Assembly: GCA_030041045.1 (NCBI GenBank)
Contig: JASHOQ010000048.1
Location: forward strand, 1-64,000
Length of the DNA: 64,000 bases
Direction: 5' to 3'
DNA from: Acidobacteriaceae bacterium
GTDB lineage: Bacteria > Acidobacteriota > Terriglobia > Terriglobales > Acidobacteriaceae
Part shown: piece by piece, positions 18,997-20,961 of the stretch
Layout: the number at the start of each line of letters is the position of its first letter
Position numbering within the stretch: position 1 is the first letter of the stretch
Notes under the pieces: model-generated
Databases searched by the model: none
Seen by the model: only the letters and a program-made list of their open reading frames with translations
Told to the model about the DNA's origin: nothing
Made by a program: the position numbers and the translations under genes

Positions 18997-19185
18997 TTAC
19001 TGAAGCGATGTGCTGATGTTGCTGAATACATTGTTGATCGCCGACGCCACGCCGTTGATGCCCGCCACGCACGCAAGTGCAACCAGGACAATCGTCAGCG
19101 CATACTCAACCAGGTCTTGACCTTCCTCGTTGTTATAGACCCGGTCGTACGCCTTCAAATAGACGCTCTGCAACAGGGTTTTCAT
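18997..19185 (-). CDS. Flp family type IVb pilin
   Basis: A 62-residue prepilin (MKTLLQSVYL start) with a short basic leader, the processing site G22/Q23, Glu at mature position 5 (QDLVEYAL) and one hydrophobic helix TIVLVALACVAGINGVASAI. Flp pilins form Tad-type pili used in surface adhesion. No tad assembly gene or prepilin peptidase is in the window, so this is an orphan copy. The ATG is preceded by GGAGAG. A longer in-frame start (19269) would disrupt the leader and is rejected. Confidence 0.92.
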   Translation of the reverse strand: MKTLLQSVYLKAYDRVYNNEEGQDLVEYALTIVLVALACVAGINGVASAINNVFSNISTSLQ

Positions 19186-19296
19186 TTTTCTCTCCGAATG
19201 TTGGGGAACTGACTTTCGCGGTTCGACTCTCGTGCCGGGCCCCGGAGGAACCTGCGACTTTGGAACCATTGGACTCCACCTTTTCTGTCACATCAA

Positions 19297-19334
19297 TAGT
19301 ACTTAAGGTTCTAGCGAATCATTAGTACTTATGG
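19297..19334 (-). promoter_or_regulatory. Paired AGTACT sites upstream of the Flp pilin
   Basis: Two direct copies of TAGTACTTA(A/T)GG at 19297-19308 and 19323-19334, 26 bp apart, each containing the palindrome AGTACT. They lie about 112 bp upstream of the pilin start. The arrangement resembles a tandem activator or repressor site; the binding factor is unknown. Confidence 0.4.
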
Positions 19335-19443
19335 GTCCATGCTTGGCAAGTCCCCCGCATGTCCCCGCTGAAGAGCCCTCGGCGCGAGAAGCATGCCGGA
19401 GTCTCTCCTGACTCAGCGATTGTAAGCCGCTCATTCTAAATTT

Positions 19444-19773
19444 GCCCCGTAGCTCAGGTGGCTCGTCCGCAGGAAAATTCGAGGCGTCCGCAGGACGAAT
19501 CGAAGGTTGACCAGCAGTTTCCTGAAACTGCTGCGACAATACTTTCAGGCGTGGCCCCGTAGCTCAGGTGGCCCCGGCCCGCAAGGGCCGAAGCCAGAAC
19601 AGACCAGCAGTTTCCTGAAACTGCTGCGACAATACTTTCGGGCGTGGCCCCGTAGCTCAGGTGGCCCCGGCCCGCAAGGGCCGAAGCGAGAACAGACCAG
19701 CAGTTTCCTGAAACTGCTGCGACACAAGGCCTCAAAGTACAATTGAGAATCGAGCCGGCGACAGTCCAGGCGT
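19444..19773 (+). repeat. Three tandem tRNA-Arg-derived repeat units
   Basis: Three units start with the 5' part of the adjacent tRNA, (G)GCCCCGTAGCTCAGGTGG, at 19444, 19553 and 19646. After this tRNA 5' piece each unit has a different short hairpin (CGTCC-GCA-GGACG in unit 1; CGGCCC-GCAA-GGGCCG in units 2 and 3), then the perfect palindrome CAGCAGTTTC-CT-GAAACTGCTG, which mimics the tRNA anticodon arm with an extra G, then CGACA. The T-arm and acceptor 3' strand are missing. Units 2 and 3 are 93 bp apart. The true tRNA follows directly. Confidence 0.85.
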
Positions 19774-19850
19774 GGCCCCGTAGCTCAGGTGGATAGAGCA
19801 GCAGTTTCCTAAACTGCGTGTCGGAAGTTCGAATCTTCCCGGGGTCACCA
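19774..19850 (+). tRNA. tRNA-Arg (anticodon CCU)
   Basis: A complete cloverleaf: acceptor GGCCCCG pairs with CGGGGTC (one G-U), D-arm TAGCTCAGGTGGATAGAGCA, anticodon stem GCAGT/ACTGC with loop TTCCTAA (anticodon CCT at 19808-19810), T-arm GGAAG-TTCGAAT-CTTCC, discriminator A and an encoded CCA. It reads AGG codons. The 3' six bases overlap the end of the convergent gene at 19845. Confidence 0.95.
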
Positions 19851-20435
19851 GCTCATTCCGCTGGGCAGCTCAACGCGCGAGGGCGGCCAGGCCATCACCA
19901 CAAACTGGCCTGGCGCGGCGGGCGTCTTCAGCCGGGGCTGGCAGTCGGGATCGAAAGCGACCGATCCAGTACGCAGCACCTCCTCCACGCGGGCATACTG
20001 GTAGCCGGAATCCGGCTTGGTAAAGCCGGGACTGCCCTGGCACATGTCAAGGTGAATCGCGTTCTCCGTGATCTTCGAGCCGTCGGCGTCCAATCCCTTG
20101 CCGATCTCCACGATGGCCGCTCCCCGCGGGACCGGAATGGAGCCCATTCCATCGTTATCGATGGCCAGATTTGTCCAATACTGCCCGTCCGGAAAGGCGA
20201 CCCGGCGCCGGCCGTTCGGCATCGAAGCGTCTTCGACGTAGAACGCGATGCTCACCAGCTTGTTGCGGATGGGCTTGCCGCTCCTGGCTTCAACCAGGCG
20301 AATGGTCAGAATTGGCGCCGGGGTCTGCGTCGGAGCCGGTGCCGGGGTGGGCGTCGGGGTCTGCGCGGCCGCGCCAGGCCCCCATAGGGCTGCGCCGGCA
20401 AGGGCAATGACTCCCAGAAGACGCTCGATTGTCAT
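19845..20435 (-). CDS. Secreted hypothetical protein
   Basis: A 196-residue protein from ATG 20435 (MTIERLLGVIALAGAALWG) with a signal peptide ending near GAAAQ, a Thr/Pro repeat linker (TPTPTPAPAPTQTPAP), and a globular part with strand-rich motifs (ILTIRLVEARSGKP, GSIPVPRGAAIVEIGKG). The domain start looks like a beta-sandwich of carrier or transthyretin type, but I do not recognise the family. Its TGA stop is read from the complement of the tRNA-Arg CCA end. An in-frame extension to 20507 has no signal-like character and is rejected. Confidence 0.7.
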   Translation of the reverse strand: MTIERLLGVIALAGAALWGPGAAAQTPTPTPAPAPTQTPAPILTIRLVEARSGKPIRNKLVSIAFYVEDASMPNGRRRVAFPDGQYWTNLAIDNDGMGSIPVPRGAAIVEIGKGLDADGSKITENAIHLDMCQGSPGFTKPDSGYQYARVEEVLRTGSVAFDPDCQPRLKTPAAPGQFVVMAWPPSRVELPSGMSW

Positions 20436-20639: not shown

Positions 20640-20925
20640 GTGATTGCAACCTGTGCCGCAGCCCCGCGGTTGCGGCCTCATCAATCCAGCAATCGCCAGG
20701 ATGCTCGGGAAGGCGGTGAAAATCCGCCACTGCCCCGCAACTGTGAGCGCGCCCATGGTTGAGCCCGTCTCCTTGAGGAGATGGGCGAACCCAAGGGAGT
20801 CCAGCCACGGTCTTCCGCCCGACGCGGAAGTGACCGCCAAGCCACTGGAGTCGAACCGTTTTGGCTCGGCTTTGGGAAGGCGGCTGGACGATGCGCAAGT
20901 CAGGAGACCGGTCCTCGGCGTTCAA
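20640..20925 (+). promoter_or_regulatory. Cobalamin riboswitch
   Basis: Contains the conserved core GGGAAGGCGGTGAAAATCCG (from 20707), then CACTGCCCCGCAACTGTGAG, then AAGCCACTGGAGT, GGGAAGGCGGCTGG and the B12 box AAGTCAGGAGACC (20897-20909). These are the hallmarks of the cobalamin family. It lies in the leader of the TonB-dependent receptor that starts at 20962, 53 bp after the B12 box. Binding of a cobalamin is expected to lower receptor expression. The 5' boundary is approximate. Confidence 0.93.
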
Positions 20926-20961
20926 CCGCTTTCCCGTTCCGAGGGGGACGAAGGAGCTGCC

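Follow-up and report, generated by a model that had tools for sequence, protein, structure and literature searches.

The leaders of bacterial tRNAs are normally short and unremarkable. YrlA is an RNA with tRNA-like parts, and the scars of attachment (att) sites are partial tRNA copies beside a tRNA that serves as an integration hotspot. REP/RAYT repeats carry a GTAG or GTGG tetranucleotide at the foot of the hairpin (PMC6006769), and acidobacterial TIR-associated tyrosine transposases (TIRYTs) are described along with double-palindromic TIRs (PMC3733652).

Here, we analyze an array of partial tRNA copies in a 64,000-nucleotide stretch of an Acidobacteriaceae genome (the window) and compare it with these systems. 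Like YrlA, its units have tRNA-like parts; their best match to the YrlA family (Rfam RF02553), at 16.5 bits, falls short of the gathering score of 69. Like att-site scars, they are partial tRNA copies beside a hotspot tRNA; in the scars the tRNA sequence is unbroken up to the anticodon arm, whereas in the units a hairpin replaces ATAGAG and the anticodon arm is palindromic, and the combination of an unbroken tRNA half with nearby element genes was not found for the units. Like the double-palindromic REP and TIRYT repeats of Y1 (IS200-like) tyrosine transposases, they contain two hairpins and a purine-rich linker with AGCC or a similar sequence at its end. They differ in including the 5′ part of a tRNA together with a palindrome made from its anticodon arm, in standing in tandem, in being undispersed, and in having no fixed guide tetranucleotide. 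No such unit is described in the titles and abstract openings returned by searches of an open-access library. Judged from sequence, the array is a member of a structure-constrained repeat family tied to one tRNA gene.

Results

Three tRNA-derived units precede an intact tRNA-Arg(CCU) gene

By reading of the sequence, ARAGORN, and a repeat finder, the 5′ half of tRNA-Arg(CCU) is partially copied three times upstream of the intact gene (19774–19850, plus strand, anticodon CCT; called by ARAGORN), which is the sole copy seen in the genome. The units, all on the plus strand, lie at 19444–19540 (U1), 19552–19633 (U2), and 19645–19726 (U3), in agreement with a preliminary description that had placed three copies of the 5′ part before the gene. 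Each unit has the same order: the first 18 to 19 nt of the tRNA, a variable GC hairpin, a purine-rich linker, and an anticodon-arm palindrome. The first part, GCCCCGTAGCTCAGGTGG, is identical to the start of the tRNA, that is, to the 5′ strand of the acceptor stem and the start of the D arm, and by sequence reading the tRNA copy breaks at tRNA position ∼19. It is followed by the GC-rich hairpin 1, a purine-rich linker of ∼14 nt, and hairpin 2, a 22-nt palindrome, CAGCAGTTTCCTGAAACTGCTG, the left half of which is the 5′ side of the tRNA's anticodon arm. The tRNA 3′ half, with the T arm and the acceptor 3′ strand, is absent from the units. The previous description thus holds in that the units begin with the acceptor 5′ strand and the first part of the D arm and have no T arm, and the palindromic mimic of the anticodon arm with its extra G was likewise found in all three.

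The units differ from each other mainly in hairpin 1, and the earlier observation that this GC hairpin differs between U1 and U2–U3 while remaining paired holds. In U2 (hairpin 1 at 19575–19590, linker, palindrome at 19605–19626) and U3 (hairpin 1 at 19668–19683, linker, palindrome at 19698–19719), each headed by its tRNA 5′ part, hairpin 1 is CGGCCC-GCAA-GGGCCG. In U1 (tRNA 5′ part at 19444–19461, hairpin 1, linker, palindrome at 19512–19533), it is CGTCC-GCA-GGACG, or, with longer arms, TCGTCC/GGACGA. The repeat finder reports 93-nt repeats at 19509–19601 and 19602–19694 that are 98% identical, and within the hairpin 1 region of U1 (19464–19503, plus strand) a near-duplication, absent from the preliminary description, of 19464–19482 and 19485–19503 (84% alike). 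The last spacer (19727–19773, plus strand) differs from the spacers between the units of the window array and exceeds them in length.

None of the units contains a complete cloverleaf: ARAGORN calls only 19774–19850, and Rfam RF00005 matches the intact gene only. Neither the window array nor the array of a relative, G263 (relatives are given here by G numbers), reaches the gathering threshold of any Rfam family. The folding energies of U1, U2, and U3 are 2.2, 3.4, and 3.0 standard deviations, respectively, below those of dinucleotide shuffles. The array is the single one of its kind in its own 5.23-Mb genome, where the best matches to tRNA-Arg(CCU) elsewhere in a DNA search are only 76% and 73%.

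Units recur in relatives and adjoin tRNA-Arg(CCU) at all loci found

Related units were sought by DNA search of 60 relatives and then with covariance models built from units. We found units at 15 loci in 14 genomes, representing five genera of one family and one possibly mixed bin; the models (R1 from 7 units, R2 from 16) include the window's units, which therefore score high by construction, and because both are fitted to tRNA-Arg(CCU) units, comparable repeats at other tRNAs could escape them. In the genus, 7 of 80 genomes carry units (covariance model, E ≤ 1e-5): the window's, G029 (two loci), G014, G021, G424, G449, and G450. Carriers in four other genera of the family are G139, G160, G252, G257, G263, and G282. 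Searches spanning more than 40 genomes used stricter filters, with loss of weak matches. In the family sample, 18 of 398 genomes matched at E ≤ 0.001 and 10 of 398 hold units on inspection; of the eight matches dropped, G126, G167, and G222 are REP-like repeats, G094, G246, and G087 have a ∼20-nt copy of the tRNA start joined directly to tRNA-Arg(CCU), without hairpins, and G096 and G327 are neither. Samples of two other genera contained units in 1 of 12 and 2 of 9 genomes. In the order, 8 of 249 genomes matched, all from this family, with units in three of the eight. In the class, 3 of 349 matched at E ≤ 1e-4, one of which is the bin G591, outside the family. Its unit stretch is identical to PMYF01000493.1. 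With a size of 7.6 Mb, 6% contamination, and beside the unit a TonB receptor gene that resembles the window's by eye, this bin may be mixed. G019, which has a hairpin-2-like palindrome only, was left out of the counts.

In all 15 loci, the units have the orientation of tRNA-Arg(CCU) and lie immediately upstream of the gene, or of its 5′ half where the tRNA is split. In G160 and G252, a second contig carries some of the units at its end, and we infer that it joins the tRNA-bearing contig. In G139 and G263, the adjoining tRNA-Arg(CCU) is a 5′ half only, followed by other sequence as at the end of an island. The distance from the last palindrome to the tRNA is 16 to 19 nt in 12 of 15 loci, 29 nt in G591, 50 nt in G424, and 54 nt in the window. 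There are four units in G263, three in the window and in G449, two at the first G029 locus and in G257, at least three in G160, at least two in G424 and G252, and one at each remaining locus. Tandem periods are ∼90 to 93 bp, with 126 bp in G424. A minus-strand repeat peptide (a 93-aa open reading frame, antisense at 19454–19735) was considered and rejected, as the periods of 91 (G160) and 92 (G263) are not multiples of three.

An exact-pattern search of viral contigs returned 13 stretches, with no unit among the matches listed, a list that omitted matches having an ordinary tRNA D stem; a pattern scan of genome contigs found units in two acidobacterial records only, among the matches listed. 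A phage-borne element would thus find no support among the matches listed in the viral-contig search.

Both hairpins are maintained by paired changes

The arms of hairpin 1 vary among units (CGGCCC/GGGCCG, CTGCCC/GGGCAG, TCGCCC/GGGCGA, TGGCCC/GGGCCA, TCGTCC/GGACGA, and others) while their pairing is retained. Across all distinct copies, 161 of 162 cells of hairpin 1 are paired (27 units), with 20 double-change cells at three pairs, and 249 of 252 cells of hairpin 2 are paired (28 units, G282 entering for hairpin 2 only), with 12 double-change cells at two pairs. Shuffling whole arms among units reached the observed pairing of either hairpin in 0 of 5000 trials. With one unit per locus, 89 of 90 hairpin 1 cells and 134 of 135 hairpin 2 cells are paired, giving the same answer, although kin copies enter more than once in both sets, and the per-locus set includes two units from the window, none from G282 (the hairpin 1 of which is decayed), and the better-paired copy from G029, G424, and G252. 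A tool count over 14 distinct rows, some of them misaligned in hairpin 1, gave 97.1% paired cells and a covariation of 0.192, compared to 0.090 when shuffled. One-sided changes in the cores produce G-U pairs at five places (G021, G257, G424, the G257/G029 type, and G282) and no A-C; there are four other mismatches in the cores. Counting a seventh, outermost pair of hairpin 1 would bring in C-A cases as judged by eye, so these changes carry no weight here as evidence for RNA over DNA structure. Around the D-loop copy, GTGGCC can pair with GGCCAC as a third helix, which is less well supported (88% of cells paired). The structure is kept in relatives, and the earlier proposal that the arms covary is borne out; that proposal would have failed had the units lacked related copies or covariation.

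Comparison of a locus shared by the window, G029, and G449 gives a second view of the constraint. Here the product of the neighboring gene shares 69% and 75% identity with its counterpart in the window, from which the gene differs at 28 of 98 and 35 of 77 four-fold sites. Taking one unit per locus and partitioning it by hand, we found that 0 of 30 stem positions changed among the three species, compared to 17 of 44, 11 of 45, and 11 of 45 positions in linkers, loops, and spacers in the three comparisons (p 4e-5, 2e-3, and 2e-3). Between G160 and G252, partitioned in the same manner, 0 of 30 stem positions and 6 of 42 unpaired positions changed (p 0.04). Hairpin-templated repair or homogenization of tandem copies could likewise keep the stems unchanged.

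Units match the tRNA of their own host

tRNA-Arg(CCU) occurs in three main types by the 5′ strand of its anticodon stem (GCAGCAG, GCAGCGG, and GCGACGG), and the units follow this variation. The 10-nt right arm of the palindrome is the exact complement of the strand of the unit's own tRNA in 12 of 15 loci and fits its own tRNA type best in 14 of 15, a fit matched by 0 of 20,000 shuffles of the tRNAs among loci; the fit of the 5′ part was matched by 8 of 20,000. The exception is G282, whose unit is closer to a tRNA type other than its own. For the 5′ part, G450 deviates, its copy being one base closer to the common type A than to its own tRNA. The units also have in common features that do not derive from the tRNA: a C before and GCG after the palindrome, and CC/GG at the loop of hairpin 1. 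Because these shared features are foreign to the tRNA, we infer that the units are related and did not arise separately at each locus.

Units are predicted to be transcribed and to fold with the tRNA

U1 directly follows a promoter-like stretch, ttgtaagccgctcattctaaat (19420–19441, plus strand), which resembles by eye those before tRNA-Arg(CCU) or its 5′ halves in relatives (TGTAAG..TTGATTCTAAA). The window's last spacer lacks such a stretch, the stretches before the first units at other loci do not resemble each other, and a generic sigma-70 scan of 19200–20000 called no promoter. Because U1 follows this stretch, and because the last palindrome and the tRNA stand just 16 to 19 nt apart in 12 of 15 loci, too close for a whole promoter to fit, the units and the tRNA are likely to be cotranscribed.

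In predictions with unit and tRNA folded as one RNA, the tRNA nearly loses its own acceptor helix in 10 of 13 loci tested. In these 10, the predicted interaction of leader and tRNA is −5.2 to −10.9 kcal/mol, compared to −3.1 to −4.2 kcal/mol for nine unit-free leaders, which were hand-picked from plus-strand loci and cut to 260 nt, while the unit leaders vary in length. The rival fold is absent in G021, G252, and G282 (−3.6, −1.4, and −3.6 kcal/mol), and in G450 and G424 the leader interacts more favorably with a foreign tRNA than with that of its own locus. These predictions describe equilibrium folding and leave cotranscriptional folding out of account. The rival fold is also a nearly inevitable and likely by-product of duplicating the tRNA 5′ half beside a palindrome. 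Because the units would be transcribed before the tRNA, their local hairpins may avert the trap, and a switch between the local hairpins and the rival fold is conceivable.

tRNA-Arg(CCU) is an integration site in this clade

Elements were found on both sides of tRNA-Arg(CCU) in relatives. In G032, a Phage_integrase protein (PF00589) stops immediately 5′ of the tRNA; a related C-terminal end has this position in G015, and a more distant relative lies on the tRNA 3′ side in G009. Detached 5′ halves of the tRNA occur in G004, G007, G012, G020, G027, and G032 and 3′ halves in G005, G009, and G031 (a half in G023 that ends at the contig edge was excluded). In the elements at L024, L015, L039–L042, L044, and L045, which integrate 5′ of tRNA-Arg(CCU), the integrase gene ends shortly upstream of the tRNA and the 5′ half is left elsewhere, the opposite of the usual 3′-half arrangement. 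Thus, the argument of the preliminary description that integration duplicates the 3′ rather than the 5′ part of a tRNA does not hold in this clade. Its conclusion that the array is not a plain att scar stands on other grounds, since the 5′-half scars keep ATAGAG and are without hairpin 1, and the units differ. In the 64-kb window, a search with the G032 integrase as the only query found no match at E ≤ 1e-3.

Discussion

The feature is real, recurrent, and structurally constrained, and its anatomy is well supported; the functional readings are proposals drawn from sequence comparison. The one we prefer, tentatively, is that the units form a transcribed, structured leader of tRNA mimics, perhaps derived from a REP-like insertion, that could fold alternatively with the tRNA. 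A hairpin-linker or hairpin-linker-hairpin piece like the Y1 (REP-type) double-palindromic repeats would probably have joined a copy of the tRNA-Arg(CCU) 5′ half, and the resulting unit would then have multiplied through tandem duplication. The units would stand in for the 5′ leader of the tRNA and would most likely be transcribed with it, each giving two stable local hairpins, the pairing of which is shown by comparison, and at many loci perhaps a third that masks the copy of the acceptor strand. The repeated 5′ strand, along with a palindrome able to pair with either side of the anticodon arm, is predicted to allow a rival fold of unit and tRNA that traps the tRNA. More speculatively, the units may tune the maturation of tRNA-Arg(CCU) or mimic its anticodon arm for a tRNA-binding protein. 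Because they are rare and patchy (10 of 398 genomes in the family sample and 7 of 80 in the genus), they would be dispensable for tRNA function. That they represent a new class of tRNA leader, in which tandem self-folding copies act as a switch or decoy array for tRNA-Arg(CCU) and evolve in step with the tRNA, we consider unlikely. Units that copy a tRNA 5′ half, show compensatory change in their hairpins, track the tRNA, and were found at a single isoacceptor would point either to cis-acting regulation of a tRNA for a rare codon or to a new route of linkage between REP-like hairpins and tRNA genes.

A REP-like contribution to the units is likely by resemblance of plan. The arrangement hairpin-AAYGARARnAGCC-hairpin occurs also in acidobacterial repeats away from tRNA genes, and in the window's own genome a Y1 transposase gene (L132, among 10 Y1_Tnp matches) is bracketed by an inverted hairpin-linker-hairpin pair. 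The array could then be a REP-like, Y1-type double palindrome that captured pieces of the tRNA, its hairpins serving now or formerly as single-stranded DNA substrates and the array being a local product without an RNA function. We regard this reading as somewhat unlikely. The resemblance of the unit linkers to these repeats was equaled by 0 of 20,000 common column permutations with 12 repeats and by 11 of 20,000 with 8 repeats that the unit model had not picked up; it is moderate on this less biased set and weak there on the first 9 linker bases (1111 of 20,000). The many dispersed copies expected of a REP family were not found: there is one array in the window's own genome, and none of the inspected matches is a unit at a site other than tRNA-Arg(CCU). 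On this ground, a dispersed form of the mobile repeat suggested in the preliminary description was rejected. The GTAG/GTGG foot is not kept either, as the tetranucleotide before hairpin 1 is GTGG in most units, CTGG in G160 and G252, and ATGG at the second locus of G029, in each case following the tRNA, and the tracking of the host's own tRNA by the parts of the unit would be left unexplained.

Two further readings were considered. The units might be inert debris of tRNA 5′-half duplication, kept alike by tandem homogenization, gene conversion with the tRNA, and hairpin-templated repair. Their patchy distribution and the decay of some (G282, the first unit of G449, and G021) would fit debris, as would the tRNA 5′ halves that islands in this clade do leave and the small hairpin-free 5′ duplications of G246, G087, and G094. 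We nevertheless find this decidedly unlikely: hairpin 1 is absent from the tRNA, yet has double changes at three pair positions; at shared loci it changed at 0 of 12 positions while linkers and spacers diverged; and the plain scars that were seen retain ATAGAG, with no hairpin 1. The units could instead be a decoy or mimic of the attachment site for integrases acting at the anticodon arm of tRNA-Arg(CCU), as elements integrate repeatedly at this hotspot gene, on either side of it, and leave scars of either half, the palindrome is a perfected inverted repeat of the anticodon arm, and just upstream of the G450 unit lie 83 nt that are 84% identical to the G032 integrase gene, a remnant of such a gene. 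A tyrosine recombinase requires a matching overlap, and the center of the palindrome between the 9-bp arms has 3 or 4 bases of varying sequence. Because of this, and because in G139 and G263 the break lies within the tRNA despite one and four adjoining units, we rank the decoy reading low and hold it to be very improbable; none of the 15 loci shows a break within a unit, and a decoy would leave the covariation of hairpin 1 unexplained.

Neighboring features

Upstream of the array, a 26-nt tandem direct repeat, 77% alike, lies at 19283–19334, upstream of a Flp/Fap-like pilin gene (18997–19269) that was assigned by a Pfam match under the curated cut-off; the repeat is perhaps an operator. Downstream, a Cobalamin riboswitch at 20682–20930 precedes a TonB receptor gene. 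In several relatives, a stretch that is similar by eye lies immediately 3′ of tRNA-Arg(CCU) and marks the native locus.
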